Positions 8,246 through 50,940 of a stretch of 64,000 nt of DNA are shown here, piece by piece. Origin of the DNA: Amycolatopsis umgeniensis (lineage in GTDB: Bacteria; Actinomycetota; Actinomycetes; Mycobacteriales; Pseudonocardiaceae); NCBI RefSeq assembly GCF_014205155.1, contig NZ_JACHMX010000001.1:4960001-5024000 (forward strand). Reading direction: 5' to 3'. The notes below the pieces were generated by a model. It did no database searches. It was given only the letters and a program-made list of their open reading frames with translations, and was not told where the DNA came from. The number at the start of each line of letters is the position of its first letter. Positions within the stretch are counted from its first letter, which is position 1. Made by a program: the position numbers and the translations under genes.

Positions 8246-8269
8246 TGTGGCGGTGGGCTCCGCGTCACT

Positions 8270-8391
8270 CACGTGATCAGAATCGTGACTCGCGTGATTG
8301 GGGGCGTGACTCCCGTGTTTGGGGCCGGAACTCTTGAGTTCCGGCCCCAAACACGCGAGTCACGGCGTGACTCACGCGTGTGACGGGTCAG
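8270..8391. repeat. 21-nt phased repeat array with long inverted repeat, between convergent genes
   Basis: The units are recognised by a CRCGTGAT-like end at 8277, 8298, 8319 (CCCGTGTT) and about 8340 (degenerate), exactly 21 bases apart, followed by two units in the opposite orientation whose ACACGCG/TCACGCG cores begin 21 bases apart (8350, 8371). Bases 8305-8333 and 8336-8364 form 29-bp arms with one mismatch and a two-base loop. The array fills the gap between the acyltransferase and HAD genes and probably terminates transcription from both sides. Related arrays are at 20294, 43470 and 49920. Confidence 0.75.
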
Positions 8392-20293: not shown

Positions 20294-20349
20294 ATCACGC
20301 GTGTCGTCCGTCTGATCACACGTGTCGTCCACCCAATCACGCGAAACAC
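20294..20349 (+). repeat. 21-nt phased repeat array, three units
   Basis: Three forward units begin at 20294, 20315 and 20336 (ATCACGCGTGTCGTCC, ATCACACGTGTCGTCC, ATCACGCGAAAC), exactly 21 bases apart. It belongs to the same family as the arrays at 8270, 43470 and 49920, here without an opposing arm. It lies just after the secreted-protein gene. Confidence 0.75.
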
Positions 20350-20432
20350 CGACTCGCCCGAACTGGTCGAGTGGCGACCAGAACGGCACCTGCCACTCGC
20401 CACCCCAGCCCGGCATCCCGCAGCCACCCTGA

Positions 20433-20487
20433 TGTCGCGAAAGCCACTTTCGGGACATCAGACGTCCCGAAAGTGGCTTTCGCGACA
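20433..20487. repeat. Double palindrome: 24-bp perfect hairpin whose arms are themselves palindromic
   Basis: Arms 20433-20456 and 20464-20487 pair over 24 bases with the 7-base loop ATCAGAC. Each arm contains CGAAAG-CCA-CTTTCG (or its complement), so each could fold alone. It lies between the secreted-protein and NRAMP genes, which converge, so a two-way terminator role is likely. Confidence 0.8.
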
Positions 20488-20521
20488 CCCGGAGCTTCGC
20501 CTCAACGGCCCCAGACGCCAC

Positions 20522-21808
20522 TCACGAGAAGAACTTCACGACCTCCGTGTACGCCAGATACGCGAACATCGCCAGGCACACCCCCAGCAGCCCGTTCGAA
20601 ACCCAGCCGGACCGCCCTTCGCGAGGCACCCGCGAAGTGTTCAGCAGTACCAGCAACGTCGCCGCCAGGAACGGCATGAACAACGAGCCCAGCACGCCGT
20701 AGATCACGGTGAGCTGGAAGGGCTGGTCGAGGAACAGCAACGCCATCGGCGGAAAAGTCAGCCACAGCACGTAACCCCGGTAGGCGGGACTGCGTTCCCC
20801 GGCCTTCTTTTCATACGTCTCAACGCTTTCCGTCGTGTCCGCGGGCAGCCGGAGGATGCGCCACCAGTCCGCGAAGAGCAGGCTCACGCCGTGCCAGACC
20901 CCGATCACCGACGTGAACGAAACCGCGAAGAAGCCGATGAGGAACGGGATCCGCGCCCATTGCCCGTAGTCCGCGGCGAGGGTGTCTCCGAGGAACAGCA
21001 GGCCCTTGTCGCCCGAGAGGATCTTCTGGCCCAGCAGCAGTTCCGCGCCGACGATCAGCATCGCGATCACGAAGATCCCGGTCATGAGGTAGCCGACGGC
21101 GTTGTCGGTGCGCATCATCGGCAGCCACTTCGCCGAACGCCAGCCTTTCGCGAGCGTCCAGTAGCCGTAGGCCGCCATGGTGATCGTGCCGCCGACGCCG
21201 CCGATCAGGCCGAGGACGTAGACGAGTGAGCCGTCGGGCAGCGTGGGGACGGCGCCCTTGAACAACTCGGCGAAGTTCGGCACGACGAGGATCGCGGTGC
21301 CGACGACGGTCACGAACATCACGCCGGTGAGCACCGTCATCAGCTTCTCGATGATCGCGTAGCGGCCGAACCACACCAGCGCGAAGCCGAGCAGGCCGCA
21401 GAGCATCGCCCAGTACCGCACCGAAAGCGCGGGGAAGAGCGCGTTCAGCGGCAGTCCCGACGCCGACATCGCGGTCGCGCCGTAGACGAACCCCCAGATC
21501 ACCGCGTAGATCCCGAAGTAGATCAGCGCCCAGATCCCCAGCGTCCGCCAGCCGGACAGGATCGTCCGACCCGAGGTCAGATGCCAGCGGCCGACGGCTT
21601 CGGCCAGCGCGAGTTTGAAGATCGTCCCGACGAGCACCGCCCACAGCAGCGTGTACCCGAAGCGCGATCCGGCCACCATCGTGGCGACGAGGTCGCCCGC
21701 GCCGACCCCGGTCGCGGCGGCCATGATCCCGGGCCCGACCTGGCGCAGCCGTGCGCGCCAGCCGACGGGCGGTTCTTCCAGTTGGTCGATCACCGGTGAA
21801 CTCGACAT
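20522..21808 (-). CDS. NRAMP (SLC11)-like metal ion transporter of a non-canonical type
   Basis: A 428-residue integral membrane protein with about 11 helices and the overall NRAMP fold: [20 protein letters not shown] in TM1 and [20 protein letters not shown] in TM6. Canonical Mn/Fe transporters have DPGN in TM1 and MPH in TM6; here these read GAGD and MAA, so the metal site differs and Mn2+ specificity cannot be assumed. A cluster of actinobacterial relatives shares this variant. ATG at 21808 gives a compact N-terminus; the longer in-frame extension antisense to hemB is spurious. It is divergent from hemB with 151 bp between. The haem neighbourhood hints at iron or another divalent metal, which is speculation. 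Confidence 0.8.
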
Positions 21809-36254: not shown

Positions 36255-36337
36255 GGGCTGAAGGGGCCCTTCGCCGCATCAGACGTAGCGAAGGGGCCCT
36301 TCGCCGCATCGCACGCGGTGAAGGGCCCCTTCAGCCC
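36255..36337. repeat. Triple GAAGGGGCCCTTC element with exact 30-nt period
   Basis: GAAGGGGCCCTTC begins at 36260 and 36290 and GAAGGGCCCCTTC at 36320. The outer arms 36255-36277 and 36315-36337 pair over 23 bases with one mismatch; the middle copy can pair with the third across the loop ATCGCAC. It lies 17 bases before the menA stop and probably terminates transcription from both sides. Confidence 0.8.
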
Positions 36338-43026: not shown

Positions 43027-43470
43027 GTGACGGCCAAAGCGGAGCGGGTGAGGCGCATCGGGTGGTATGCCGCCCTCGTTGTCGCCTCACTCGTCACCGT
43101 GCTCTGCGTCTCGCTGCTGTTCGCCGCGTTCCGCAACGACAGCGCCATCGAAGCCGAACTCGGCCAGGCGACGGCGCAGGTCGAGTCGGTGACATTCGAC
43201 CGCACGATCATCAACTACGCCACCCCCGACGGCATCGTGCACAGCCCGGCCAACGGCGTGCTCTACCCGGCCGGGCTGGCCGCCGGGCAGCTGGTGAACA
43301 TCGAGTACGACGTCGGCGACCCGGAACTCGCGCGGGTGGCCGGGCGCTCGGCGTCGAACACGCTGCTGCCGCTGGGCAGCATGATCTTCTTCACCTGGCT
43401 GGTCGCCGGGCCGCTGCTGTGGTGGATCCGGCGGCTGAACACCCGGTCGCGCGCCGAGTCCCGCGCCTGA
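43027..43470 (+). CDS. DUF3592-type membrane protein
   Basis: A 147-residue protein with two helices (YAALVVASLVTVLCVSLLFA and GSMIFFTWLVAGPLLWWI) flanking an extracytoplasmic beta domain of about 75 residues with VEYDVGDPELARVAG, the hallmark of DUF3592. Function unknown. In mycobacteria a similar protein lies between menD and the mgtA region (Rv0556 position), so the placement is conserved. Confidence 0.8.
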   Translation: MTAKAERVRRIGWYAALVVASLVTVLCVSLLFAAFRNDSAIEAELGQATAQVESVTFDRTIINYATPDGIVHSPANGVLYPAGLAAGQLVNIEYDVGDPELARVAGRSASNTLLPLGSMIFFTWLVAGPLLWWIRRLNTRSRAESRA

Positions 43471-43651
43471 TCACGCGAGTTCCGCCCCCAATCACGCGTG
43501 TCGTCCCTCTGATCACGCGAGTCCCGCGTCTGATCACGTGAGTCGTCCGGATCGGCGCGTGCGCTTGCCGTGCGGAATCGGCGATCACGCGTGATCAGAC
43601 GGCGATCACGCGTGATTGAAGGCGGAACTCGCGTGATTGGAGGCGGGACTC
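43470..43651. repeat. 21-nt phased repeat array: four forward and three reverse units
   Basis: Forward units begin at 43470, 43491, 43512 and 43533, each ATCACGYG plus 13 bases. After a 35-base centre the same unit appears inverted, with CGCGTGAT ending at 43595, 43616 and 43637, and a part-unit reaches 43651. All steps are exactly 21 bases. It fills the gap between two convergent genes and slightly overlaps their ends. The units resemble each other more at the core than at the variable 3' third. Confidence 0.85.
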
Positions 43652-44480
43652 AGCCGACCGACTCCTGCCACCAGCCCAGCACCTCGTCGGCCACCCCCGG
43701 CGCCGCGACCAGAAGCGCGTCGACAGGCAAGGCCGAGCCCTCCCCGTGCCGGTCCAGCACCACGGCTCCCGCCTCGATGGCCAGCGCGACCGAGCCGGCG
43801 ACGTCCCATTCGCGGTAGTTGTGCAGCACCGCCGCGGCCGCGTGCCCCAGCGCGACCTGCGCGATCGCCAGCGCCGCCGAGCCCAGCACCCGGACCCCGG
43901 CGTGCGCGGCGGCGGCCCGTTCGATGAACTGGCCCATTCCCGGCCAGACACCCTTGCGCGTGAGTTCCGTGCAGACGATCGCCCCGGCTGTCCCGCGACG
44001 GTCGGTCAGCGTGATCGGCTTGCCGTTCGCCCGCGCGCCGCGGCCGCGCGCGGCCGCGTAGATCTGGGCGCGATACGGGTCCGCGACCACGCCCACCACC
44101 GGCCCCGAAGCGTCGATCAGGGCGAGGCTGTAGGCACACCAGGGGACGCCGGCGACGTAGTTCGCGGTGCCGTCGACAGGGTCGACCACCCAGCGGTATT
44201 CGGCGACGTCGGCACCGTGGTCGGCGCCGAATTCACCGCCGACGACGGGGATGCCGGGGAATTCCGCGGTCAGCACCCGGCGGGTGTGACGTTCGAGGAT
44301 CCGGTCCGTGTCGGTGACCCAGTCGAAGGGTGAGTCGTTCGGATCGGGCTGGGCGCCCCGGCCCGCGGTCGCGGTGATCACGTCGGTCGCGTCGTTGGCC
44401 AGCCGCCCGGCCACTTCGAGGGCCCTCGACAACAGCCCTGGCTCGACGGGCTGAGGCGGCCTTGACGACAGGAGGGTCAT
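43650..44480 (-). CDS. Inositol monophosphatase family protein
   Basis: A 276-residue lithium-sensitive-phosphatase-fold protein. The metal-binding motif is WVVDPVDGTANYVAG (DPxDGTxxF) and the second signature is REWDVAGSVALAIEAGAVVL (WDxAxG). The usual GEE segment reads GGEFGADH, with one Glu kept. It may act on inositol phosphate, PAP or fructose-1,6-bisphosphate; a link to phosphatidylinositol or mannoside synthesis with the adjacent mannosyltransferase-like gene is plausible but not proven. Divergent from mgtA-like gene by about 110 bp. Confidence 0.88.
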   Translation of the reverse strand: MTLLSSRPPQPVEPGLLSRALEVAGRLANDATDVITATAGRGAQPDPNDSPFDWVTDTDRILERHTRRVLTAEFPGIPVVGGEFGADHGADVAEYRWVVDPVDGTANYVAGVPWCAYSLALIDASGPVVGVVADPYRAQIYAAARGRGARANGKPITLTDRRGTAGAIVCTELTRKGVWPGMGQFIERAAAAHAGVRVLGSAALAIAQVALGHAAAAVLHNYREWDVAGSVALAIEAGAVVLDRHGEGSALPVDALLVAAPGVADEVLGWWQESVG

Positions 44481-48466: not shown

Positions 48467-49753
48467 ATGACCCGTCGCAACGCTGACCACGACGCCGAAG
48501 TCATCGTCGTCGGTGCCGGACCGGCCGGCTCCACCGCCGCCACGTACCTCGCCCGCGCGGGCGTCGACGTGCTGCTGCTGGAGAAGACCGAGTTCCCGCG
48601 CGAGAAGGTGTGCGGCGACGGCCTGACCCCTCGCGGCGTCAAGCAGCTCATCGACCTCGGCATCGACACCAGCGAGGACGCGGGCTGGGTGCACAGCCGC
48701 GGCCTGCGGATCCTCACCGGCGAGCTGACGCTCGAGCTCGACTGGCCGGACCTGACGAGCTACCCGCCCTACGGCGTTTCGCGTACCCGTCAGGACTTCG
48801 ACGACCTGCTCGCCAAGACCGCGGTCAAGGCGGGCGCGCGGCTCTACGAGCGCACCACCGTCACCGGCGCCATCACCAGCCCGGCAGGCCGCGTGATCGG
48901 CGTCGAGGCGAAGGTCGGCCCGGAGAAGACGCCGGTGAGTTACCGCGCTCCGCTGGTCCTGGCCTGCGACGGCGTCTCCGCGCGGCTCGCGCTGAGTGTC
49001 GGCATCCAGAAGAACGAGAAGCGCCCGATGGGCGTCGCGGTGCGCCAGTACTACAAGAGCCCGCGCCACGACGACCCGTTCATCGAGGGTCACCTGGAGC
49101 TGTGGGACCGCTCGGACCCGCGCGACCCGAAGCTGTTGCCCGGCTACGGCTGGGCGTTCCCGCTGGGTGACGGGACGGTGAACGTCGGCCTCGGCATGCT
49201 GTCGACGTCGGCCGCGTTCCGCAGCACCGACTACCGCGCTCTGCTGCGCCAGTGGCTCGACGGGACGCCTGAGGAATGGGGCTACCGCGAGGAGAACGCC
49301 ATCGGCAAGGTCGGCGGCGCCGGTCTCCCGATGGGCTTCAACCGCACCCCGCACTACCGCGACGGCCTGCTGCTGCTCGGCGACGCCGGCGGCATGGTCA
49401 GCCCGTTCAACGGCGAGGGCATCTCGGCCGCGATGGAGTCCGCGCAGCTGGCGTCGGAGTTCGTCGTGCAGGCCCTGGCGCGACGTGAGGGGCCTTCGCG
49501 TGAGCGGGCGCTGGAGGGTTACCCGCGCGCTGTCGGGGAGCTGATGGGCGGCTACTACCGGCTCGGCAACGTGTTCGCGAAGCTGATCGGGAAGCCGAAG
49601 ATCATGCACGCCGCGACGAAGTACGGCCTGCGGATCAACTCGATCCTTCCGCTGGTCTACAAGGGACTTTCAGGCTGCTACGACGCCAAGGGCGGGGACG
49701 GCGTGGACCGCCTCATCGCCGCTCTGGCGCGCGCCACCCCCACCCCGCGCTGA
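48467..49753 (+). CDS. menJ: Menaquinone reductase / geranylgeranyl reductase family flavoprotein (MenJ-like)
   Basis: A 428-residue FAD-dependent reductase. The N-terminal FAD site is VIVVGAGPAGSTAATYLARAG with the following acidic E-K-T-E-F-P-R-E-K-V-C-G-D-G-L region (family PxxYxW/GD elements), and the second FAD signature is LLLGDAGGMVSPFNGEGISA. The mycobacterial ortholog next to menG (MenJ) reduces one double bond of the menaquinone side chain, giving MK-n(H2). The ATG is two bases after menG. A strong hairpin follows within 11 bases. Confidence 0.9.
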   Translation: MTRRNADHDAEVIVVGAGPAGSTAATYLARAGVDVLLLEKTEFPREKVCGDGLTPRGVKQLIDLGIDTSEDAGWVHSRGLRILTGELTLELDWPDLTSYPPYGVSRTRQDFDDLLAKTAVKAGARLYERTTVTGAITSPAGRVIGVEAKVGPEKTPVSYRAPLVLACDGVSARLALSVGIQKNEKRPMGVAVRQYYKSPRHDDPFIEGHLELWDRSDPRDPKLLPGYGWAFPLGDGTVNVGLGMLSTSAAFRSTDYRALLRQWLDGTPEEWGYREENAIGKVGGAGLPMGFNRTPHYRDGLLLLGDAGGMVSPFNGEGISAAMESAQLASEFVVQALARREGPSRERALEGYPRAVGELMGGYYRLGNVFAKLIGKPKIMHAATKYGLRINSILPLVYKGLSGCYDAKGGDGVDRLIAALARATPTPR

Positions 49754-49763
49754 CGTTCGGGCC

Positions 49764-49806
49764 GAAGGGGCCCTTCACCGCATGCGACGCGGTGAAGGGC
49801 CCCTTC
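49764..49806. repeat. Double palindrome GAAGGGGCCCTTC, also a terminator candidate after menJ
   Basis: Perfect 18-bp arms (49764-49781 and 49789-49806) with the loop ATGCGAC. Each arm contains the near-palindrome GAAGG-GGC-CCTTC. It starts 11 bases after the menJ stop. It is a two-copy version of the 36255 element. Confidence 0.8.
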
Positions 49807-49919
49807 GTCGCGTCTGACGAGGGCAAAGTCCCCTTCAGGCGCCCGCGCAGGTGCCGGGGTCGTGAGTGGCGTTTCGGGCTAGGGCCAACCTGTCTCAGGT
49901 ACCTACAGTCGAGCGATCT

Positions 49920-50041
49920 CACGTGATCAGACGGACGACACACGTGATCAGACGGACGACACGCGGCGAGACCCCGGCCACACGCGTGTCGTCCATCCGG
50001 TCACGCGTGTCGTCCGTCTGATCACACGCGCCGTCCACTCA
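49920..50041. repeat. 21-nt phased repeat array: reverse then forward units
   Basis: CACGTGAT ends at 49927 and 49948 (a third, decayed unit would end at 49969); the orientation then flips and CACGCGTGTCGTCC-type units start at 49979, 50000 and 50021. All intervals are exactly 21 bases. The order of arms is the opposite of that in the 43470 array. Confidence 0.8.
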
Positions 50042-50318
50042 CGCACGCCCCACCCGACCCACGCCCCACCGCCGCCCTGTTCCTCACCGCGAGACGTCCC
50101 ACCTGCGGTGGTTCCACACGTCTGGACCAATCGCCGGTACTCCGCGCAGTGGTATCGGTCACAGGACAAACGTGGTCAAACGGACTCCCCGACTCGATCT
50201 TGAGAACGACGTCGCAGGTCACCGGTATCGCACGCCGGAAGAACCCGTACTGGCCGTGCGGCCAAGTTAGGGCAGCCTTATAGCACGGGGCCTAGGGACA
50301 AGAATGTGAGTCACGTCC

Positions 50319-50324
50319 TACACT
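50319..50324 (+). promoter_or_regulatory. Candidate -10 box of the nuo promoter
   Basis: TACACT fits TANNNT; GGGACA (50295-50300) lies 18 bases upstream as a possible -35. Transcription would start near 50331, so both Rex operators would lie just downstream and act as roadblocks. Uncertain; other starts are possible. Confidence 0.35.
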
Positions 50325-50335
50325 CGCCCCATGCT

Positions 50336-50353
50336 TTGTGAATCGCTTCACAT
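50336..50353 (+). promoter_or_regulatory. Rex operator 1 upstream of nuoA
   Basis: TTGTGAATCGCTTCACAT matches the Rex consensus at 17 of 18 positions counting the free centre. Confidence 0.88.
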
Positions 50354-50367
50354 CCTCGACGGGAGGC

Positions 50368-50385
50368 TTGTGAACTATTTCACAA
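50368..50385 (+). promoter_or_regulatory. Rex operator 2 upstream of nuoA
   Basis: TTGTGAACTATTTCACAA is a perfect match to TTGTGAANNNNTTCACAA. It lies exactly 32 bases (about three helical turns) from operator 1, so two Rex dimers would bind the same DNA face. Confidence 0.92.
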
Positions 50386-50411
50386 GCAAGGGGGCCGTCA
50401 TGCACGGCCCG

Positions 50412-50430
50412 TAAGGGTTGCCTAACCCTC
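50412..50430 (+). promoter_or_regulatory. Iron-box-like palindrome (DtxR/IdeR type) in the nuoA leader
   Basis: TAAGGGTTGCCTAACCCTC agrees with the DtxR consensus TTAGGTTAGCCTAACCTAA at about 15 of 19 positions, counting W positions. It can also fold as a hairpin (AGGGTT with AACCCT), and a GGGCCGT/ACGGCCC hairpin (50392-50410) precedes it, so an RNA role is the alternative. Confidence 0.45.
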
Positions 50431-50526
50431 GGCGGTGTGACCCAGGTGACTTAGGGTGCCGACCGAGGGAAGCGGTGAACCCCGACTCGAAAACCGCAGC
50501 GGCGCGGAAAGGATGGCGAAAACCCC

Positions 50527-50940
50527 GTGCTGATGTTGCCCGTGCTGGCCCAGGCGGACACCCCTACGGTGCCCAACCTGGACATGTACCTCCCCCTGGT
50601 CCTCCTGTTCGTCCTCGCTCTCGGATTCGCGGTGCTCTCGGTGCTGCTCGGCCCGCTCGTCGGCCCGAGCCGGGCCAACAAGGCGAAGCTCGCGGCCTAC
50701 GAATGCGGCATCGAACCGTCGCCGCAGCCGGTCGTCGGCGGCGGCCGGATGCCGGTCGCGTACTACATCACCGCGATGCTGTTCATCCTGTTCGACATCG
50801 AGATGGTCTTCCTCTACCCGTTCGCGGTCTCCGCGGACGCGCTGGGCATGTTCGGCCTGGTGGAGATCGTGCTGTTCATCGCGACGGTCGGTTTCGCGTA
50901 CGCCTACGTATGGCGTCGCGGCGGCCTGGATTGGAACTAG
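50527..50940 (+). CDS. nuoA: NADH-quinone oxidoreductase subunit A
   Basis: NuoA is a three-helix membrane-arm subunit of complex I near the quinone site. The 137-residue product contains KLAAYECGIEP (conserved Glu and Cys loop) and MLFILFDIEMVFLYPFAV. The GTG start lacks a close Shine-Dalgarno; a GGAAAGGA stretch ends 13 bases upstream, so ATG at 50533 is possible. It heads the nuo operon and is preceded by two Rex operators. Confidence 0.95.
   Translation: MLMLPVLAQADTPTVPNLDMYLPLVLLFVLALGFAVLSVLLGPLVGPSRANKAKLAAYECGIEPSPQPVVGGGRMPVAYYITAMLFILFDIEMVFLYPFAVSADALGMFGLVEIVLFIATVGFAYAYVWRRGGLDWN

Follow-up and report, generated by a model that had tools for sequence, protein, structure and literature searches.

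Background

Three described systems come closest to the repeats reported here. In PMC3733652, the REP/BIME repeats (GTAG- and CGTC-tagged) are high-copy, extragenic sequences that fold as inverted pairs and lie mostly in convergent or unidirectional gaps near stop codons; some REP families have no dedicated transposase. In Neisseria and Pasteurellaceae, a short word, the DNA-uptake signal, occurs as inverted pairs between convergent genes and has been co-opted as a terminator stem (PMC1852404). In Streptomyces clavuligerus, the highly structured 3' ends include 353 without and 182 with a U-rich tract (PMC8269248).

We analyzed a stretch of 64,000 nucleotides from Amycolatopsis umgeniensis (contig NZ_JACHMX010000001.1, positions 4,960,001 to 5,024,000, hereafter called the window), in which the original prediction had pointed to phased intergenic arrays of a 21-base repeat. 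We read these arrays, with moderate confidence, as high-copy gene-end hairpin elements of Amycolatopsis, whose likeliest job would be 3'-end formation of the flanking genes through termination of their transcripts. Such 21-base arrays are undescribed among the matches listed in the open-licence PubMed Central literature, outside which most subscription journals fall.

Anatomy of the arrays and of their repeat unit

The seven core positions that had been given for the array at 43470-43651 hold (see the two arms below), and three further arrays, at about 8267-8381, at 20294-20356 and at 49920-50037, each have the same 21-base step. The change of orientation in the middle, which had been ascribed to the arrays, was found in three of the four in the window; the array at 20294 has a single arm. 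The features are as follows.

43455..43652, no single strand: the whole array, with about four forward and three to four reverse 21-nt units (from the sequence, tandem repeats and core matches)
43470..43553, forward strand: forward arm of four units, starting at 43470, 43491, 43512 and 43533 (the unit at 43533 is weak)
43575..43637, reverse strand: reverse arm of three units, ending at 43595, 43616 and 43637, two of them with the palindromic core ATCACGCGTGAT
43468..43470, forward strand: TGA stop codon of the upstream gene 43027-43470, within the repeat sequence CTGATCACGCG (from the sequence and the gene call)
43650..43652, reverse strand: TGA stop codon of the convergent inositol-monophosphatase gene 43653-44480, within the repeat-like TGAGTCCCGCC
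8267..8381, no single strand: reverse-then-forward array between convergent genes (z -7.2)
20294..20356, forward strand: one-armed array between convergent genes, folding weakly (z -3.1)
49920..50037, no single strand: two-armed T-type array in a co-directional gap, downstream of the gene 48467-49753 (z -7.7)

The array at 43455..43652 occupies the entire gap between the two convergent stop codons and is predicted to form a single long hairpin (-130.4 kcal/mol, z -10.0). That at 8267..8381 contains an inverted repeat of 28 bp whose one mismatch is central (GGAACTC-TT-GAGTTCC), and that at 20294..20356 is composed of two T-type forward units (see below) and a third, end-like unit, TCACGCGAAAC. 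Among 41 arrays from the 1.2-Mb segment and from loci L001-L030, the arm order was reverse then forward in 22, forward then reverse in 4 and mixed in 1; since the reverse-then-forward order is the usual one elsewhere in the same genome, the array at 43470-43651 represents the rarer type. The core ATCACGCGWGT, with up to one mismatch, occurred 17 times in the window, against a mean of 3.0 and a maximum of 8 in 100 dinucleotide shuffles. No Rfam family was detected within the 64-kb window at the gathering threshold, one search of plasmid records gave no match to the stretch 49800-50700, and no exact tandem pair of the repeat unit was present in the viral contigs.

The core itself has to be redrawn. 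The sequence ATCACGCGTGTCGTCC, which had been taken for the conserved core, is present in one of the four forward units of the array at 43470-43651, and the part that is in fact conserved is ATCACGCGWG(T). The view that a core is kept while the end of the unit varies stands, but the variation extends over all 10 bases after the core (positions 12-21) and not over the last five or so. Two sub-types can be distinguished: A-type units have A at position 9 and linkers such as TCCGC or CACGC, and T-type units have T at position 9 and mostly the linker CGTCC. The T-type arrays have a common outer end, TTTCGCGTGA, followed by the unit sequence (13 exact copies in G000:C1, including 4980323-4980346), as if the T-type element were bounded by a defined terminus. 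A MITE is characterized by terminal inverted repeats, a target-site duplication and a parent transposon. A CRISPR array consists of near-identical repeats with unique spacers of like length between them, accompanied by cas genes; here, the units stand head-to-tail with a varying 10-base linker and no spacers, and judged on this repeat anatomy the arrays are, as had been stated, not a CRISPR.

The unit also varies among genomes. In G288 it is ATCACGCGTGTCGACCCTTCG, with a changed linker and with the core common to both clades (the pieces were picked by core match). G012, a genome without a match to the main unit, has a different 21-nt unit, GCAAACNCGCGCGCGTGGGCG, in 20 tandem pairs; a search of 35 genomes, 21 of which belong to the genus (A. 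umgeniensis included), found this unit in 1. We also considered whether arrays are one-armed when they are of the T-type, as neighbouring T-type units can pair with each other, and set this idea aside as weak (Fisher p 0.03 for the 41 arrays, a set that includes loci L001-L030 selected by exact match, and p 0.17 for the unbiased segment).

Location at gene ends and hairpin formation

The arrays are located at the 3' ends of genes. In 1.2 Mb around the window, a weight matrix detected 68 units in 27 clusters, 8 of which were single units. A simple gene caller based on codon usage placed 24 of these 27 clusters between genes; 15 of the 122 convergent gaps contained one, as did 8 of the 425 co-directional gaps and 1 of the 193 divergent gaps. 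The 3 clusters within genes were single matches, a number near the approximately 2 false positives expected from the threshold. Known DNA-uptake signals are common in coding sequence; the exact 11-base core was outside genes in 24 of 25 cases and coding in 1, though 87% of the sequence is coding. The 8-base heart of the core does occur in genes (38 of 84 copies of CACGCGTG and 52 of 97 copies of CACGCGAG). For the GCAAACNCGCGCGCGTGGGCG unit of G012, all four clusters in 400 kb were at gene ends, three in convergent gaps and one in a co-directional gap.

The laddered hairpin that the original prediction envisaged was recovered by folding for three of the window arrays (z -10.0, -7.2 and -7.7), with a weaker value of -3.1 for the one-armed array at 20294. 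Depending on which of two rules was applied, 25-27 of 41 arrays (from the segment and from loci L001-L030) had two arms and 14-16 had one. When the arms of the 22 reverse-forward arrays were swapped, the native combinations were more stable (mean -80.5 kcal/mol, versus -72.6 kcal/mol for the swapped ones; permutation p 0.0003); the same test on the forward-reverse arrays was not significant (n = 4, p 0.12). Paired units were alike at 6.4 of 10 linker bases, and unpaired combinations within an array at 5.2 (p 0.012), a comparison that is biased because the partners were picked by the fold. A stricter mirror test without gaps, on the 6 arrays that share a single centre length, did not reach significance (linker p 0.13). 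Most arrays thus have the potential to form a hairpin, and 7 of the 24 intergenic clusters showed no unusual folding (z above -2).

Note that convergent gaps without arrays were equally structured (median z -5.6, n = 30, versus -5.2, n = 24, with arrays), so that strong folding belongs to the slot and not to the 21-base family. In the A. umgeniensis segment, perfect stems of 12 bp or more are a common feature of gene ends: one was detected in 73 of the 117 convergent gaps, in 56 of the 395 co-directional ones and in 8 of the 191 divergent ones, compared with 2 of the 703 coding control pieces. Of the 168 perfect-stem regions, just 5 were 21-nt arrays with two or more units, because mismatches between the arms are common and break perfect stems, and the counts of perfect stems therefore mostly represent other hairpin families.

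A T-rich 8-mer (at least four T) was found within 20 nt of an array at 1 of 38 array sides, versus 1202 of 6840 background windows. A canonical intrinsic terminator was rejected accordingly: most arrays have the stem, but the U-tract is absent.

Replacement of hairpins in orthologous slots

The 3' flanks of three genes were read in relatives as a sample of turnover. Eight of the 10 clade-1 species have an array in the inositol-phosphatase slot, and the number of units per arm differs between them. Across 22 genomes, this slot was occupied by an array in 8, by another perfect stem of at least 12 bp in 5 (G015, G011, G003, G005 and G010) and by neither in 9; among 80 named relatives an array was found in 8, all of them among the first 11 listed and including A. 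azurea and A. keratiniphila. In clade 1, the slot of the Nramp-like gene (20525-21790) had an array in 2, another stem in 11 and neither in 3 of 16 genomes, G018 being counted as non-array there, yet having a single strong unit. The corresponding numbers for the slot of the gene 48467-49753 were 1, 14 and 2 of 17 genomes. Four unrelated stem families recur at both of the latter slots. The contents of the slots therefore change fast, and the unrelated hairpins often found in orthologous slots point to hairpin formation, and not phasing, as the property that they have in common.

An arm of the GTCGTGAGTGG hairpin family was found within 90 bases of 4 of 19 arrays, versus 3 of 173 other gaps (lengths unmatched), which suggests that the elements land in or next to one another.

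Several other repeats were observed on the way. At locus L188 (G018) and at 49859-50046 of the window, units are flanked by the apparent arms of a GTCGTGAGTGG...CCACTCAC hairpin and look like an insertion into its loop. Another gene-end hairpin family, TGTCGCGAAAGCCACTTTCGGGAC..., is present at 20431-20488 of the window, and its stems recur in two gene-end slots in 7 genomes. The GAAGGGGCCCTTC family is represented by a hairpin at 49764-49806, which follows the stop codon at 49753, and by a 30-base tandem form at 36260-36332. The non-carrier G003 favours intergenic repeats with a period of 30 (7 of 21).

Strictness of the 21-base step

The 21-base spacing holds beyond the window, almost without exception, in three lineages. 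Same-strand neighbours (up to 130 bases apart) were separated by 21 bases in all 31 cases from the unbiased 1.2-Mb segment, in 24 of the 25 from the distant species G288 (63 in the remaining one; 11 pieces picked around known matches) and in all 35 for the GCAAACNCGCGCGCGTGGGCG unit of G012 (17 pieces picked around matches, L241-L257, e.g. G012:C1:6931573). In the inositol-phosphatase slot of relatives, 38 of 39 distances were 21 and the other was 20; in A. roodepoortensis, one arm in this slot has 12 reverse units. A looser count of same-strand core pairs (up to 130 bases apart, up to one mismatch) gave 21 in 29 pairs, 42 or 63 in 11, and 41, 51, 62, 72, 93 or 114 in the remaining 9, and some of these off-step pairs result from palindromic cores that are read on both strands. 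The step is also maintained across the flip: the distance from the last reverse to the first forward unit was 8 or 9 modulo 21 in 20 of 25 reverse-forward arrays, a set that was pooled from several genomes, is non-independent, and leaves out 5 presumed double-called palindromes.

Since the intergenic autocorrelation for a 21-base period was blurred by 3-base periodicity, Tandem Repeats Finder was used. It assigned a period of 21 to 24 of 62 intergenic arrays in 1.2 Mb of the A. umgeniensis genome, to 3 of 16 in G012, to 1 of 21 in G003, and to just 1 of 11 in G018 (0.36 Mb), though the latter is a carrier with 100 pairs.

Because the step is so strict in the three lineages, and also across most flips, a phased protein remains a rival explanation. 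The units would then be putative DNA-binding sites: a protein (a regulator, a nucleoid protein or a gyrase-like factor) would occupy every CACGCGWG core, two helical turns from the next, and DNA between transcription units would be organized or insulated by the arrays, as has been proposed for BIMEs. The core that is common to the clades while the linker differs (in the G288 pieces picked by core match) is in line with such a protein, and one-armed arrays that do not fold still keep the step. We nevertheless consider this explanation unlikely: the full 11-base core is nearly absent outside the arrays, though its 8-base heart occurs in genes, the orthologous slots of sister species are often filled by unrelated hairpins, and the unit length would also be kept by tandem duplication alone. 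Tandem duplication from one ancestor, together with the need to keep the two arms in register, would also explain the strict step.

Abundance and distribution

Four arrays in 64 kb had suggested a genome-wide system, and the 9.2-Mb genome indeed contains 286 tandem pairs (two cores exactly 21 bases apart, with up to two mismatches; 147 forward and 139 reverse), against none for the reversed pattern. Of 80 Amycolatopsis genomes, A. umgeniensis included, 38 have between 2 and 447 pairs each, and the other 42 have none; the reversed-pattern control was also 0 in the other genomes of the genus, with their up to 447 pairs. Other Pseudonocardiaceae, which had been proposed as a place to look, gave no such result: in a family sample of 297 genomes searched with up to one mismatch, matches were found in 16 of the 26 same-genus genomes (A. 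umgeniensis among them) and in 0 of 271 from other genera, and 0 of 24 other genomes of the order matched. Among the genomes searched, the family is limited to Amycolatopsis.

Close relatives within the genus can differ roughly tenfold in their number of pairs (G000 has 286, G329 has 33 and G019 has 26). On a one-gene tree of 30 genomes, the carriers (more than 10 pairs) fall into two groups (15 of 17 and 5 of 7), and the carrier label needs 5 changes, at least 3 of which are forced by well-supported branches; the deep branches and the root of this tree are weak. The record JOAA01000019.1 (L308), titled Rhodococcus rhodnii and listed among Pseudonocardiaceae, has an inositol phosphatase that is 88% identical, and its label may be wrong.

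This variable copy number and the patchy presence in the genus are what would be expected from selfish miniature repeats without a host role, which would be spread by a replication or recombination process and be seen at gene ends as insertion elsewhere is harmful. The defined T-type end in its 13 exact copies and the arms of another hairpin family close to some arrays (with gap lengths unmatched) would fit as well. We regard purely selfish repeats as improbable, however, because convergent gaps are preferred to divergent ones, beyond mere avoidance of genes, because native arms match better than swapped arms, and because the RAYT-type (Y1) transposase is absent. The RAYT search (PF01797) was negative in all 36 genus genomes, A. 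umgeniensis included, and positive in 5 of 14 named controls and 3 order genomes; RAYT-driven spread was rejected on this absence. The possibility that GC-rich intergenic stretches are alike by chance, or that the arrays arose in assembly, has nothing but the high GC in its favour and a negligible probability, being refuted by the reversed-pattern control (0, against 286 pairs here and up to 447 in other genomes of the genus) and contradicted by the orthologous arrays in named species.

A proposed role in 3'-end formation

We favour the reading of the arrays as gene-end elements for 3'-end formation, since the slots across species mostly share a long stem after the stop codon, and neither sequence nor phase. 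The arms, made of 21-base modules, would fold in a transcript of either strand into a long stem right after the stop codon and would form the 3' ends of the flanking genes, mainly of convergent pairs, for which the element would work in both directions. RNA polymerase may stop or stall at the stem, which would probably act as a terminator of the U-less 'I-shaped' or the Rho-assisted kind, and the stem may also protect the 3' end of the RNA. The lack of a U-tract beside the arrays points to U-less terminators, or to stems that stall the polymerase or protect 3' ends. Modules would be gained by tandem duplication and lost by deletion, and the exact 21-base step would put every unit of one arm in register with every unit of the other; as the step keeps the pairing register, the hairpins would survive changes in copy number. 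The arrays are probably a fast-changing, two-way transcription stop signal built of 21-base blocks that can be added or lost, and in our reading they form a modular family, one of several kinds of gene-end hairpin that can replace each other.

A more far-reaching proposal can be made tentatively, although we think it rather doubtful as a whole. Amycolatopsis gene ends might be sockets for interchangeable mobile hairpin cassettes. In one cassette type, a modular ladder, selection might act on the 21-bp, two-turn unit length itself, and the sequence of the unit would meanwhile drift or be exchanged (most carriers have ATCACGCGWGT..., and G012 has GCAAACNCGCGCGCGTGGGCG). The arms might grow by tandem duplication and template switching, and the resulting bacterial satellite-like hairpins might need no RAYT transposase to spread and might insulate transcription in both directions.

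These repeats bear on how high-GC actinomycetes terminate transcripts without U-tracts, and on the fast replacement of gene-end hairpins between close species. They offer many natural variants in which the arms at one and the same gene end differ in number, so that any dependence of termination, RNA protection and protein binding on unit number and spacing can be tested. If the arrays are stop signals, unnoticed two-way stops between genes would matter for the cloning and engineering of Amycolatopsis antibiotic clusters.

Comparison with known systems

The arrays share with the REP/BIME repeats (PMC3733652) the copy number, the extragenic location at gene ends and the inverted pairing, and the CGTCC linker of the T-type unit recalls the CGTC tag. 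They differ in that the 21-nt unit is not itself a short-loop stem-loop of 20-40 bp; their arms consist of tandem 21-nt modules. Neither the GTAG nor the CGTC tag is present in the common A-type units, and in T-type units CGTC lies inside the linker and not at the stem end. Actinobacteria, Amycolatopsis and Streptomyces are not mentioned in the accessible part of PMC3733652.

With the uptake-signal terminators (PMC1852404), the arrays have in common a short repeated word and inverted pairs between convergent genes, but the Amycolatopsis cores are outside genes in 24 of 25 cases and the word is arranged in phased tandem arrays. The 'I-shaped' terminators of S. clavuligerus are likewise GC-rich gene-end stems without a U-tract in a high-GC actinomycete; they are single stems derived from mapped transcript 3' ends (PMC8269248), whereas the Amycolatopsis arrays are a repeat family known from sequence. 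We file the arrays as a variant of the gene-end hairpin repeats, new in their tandem 21-base modules, in having no RAYT-type transposase in 36 genus genomes, in a core that is nearly absent from coding sequence, and in their restriction to one genus among the genomes searched.
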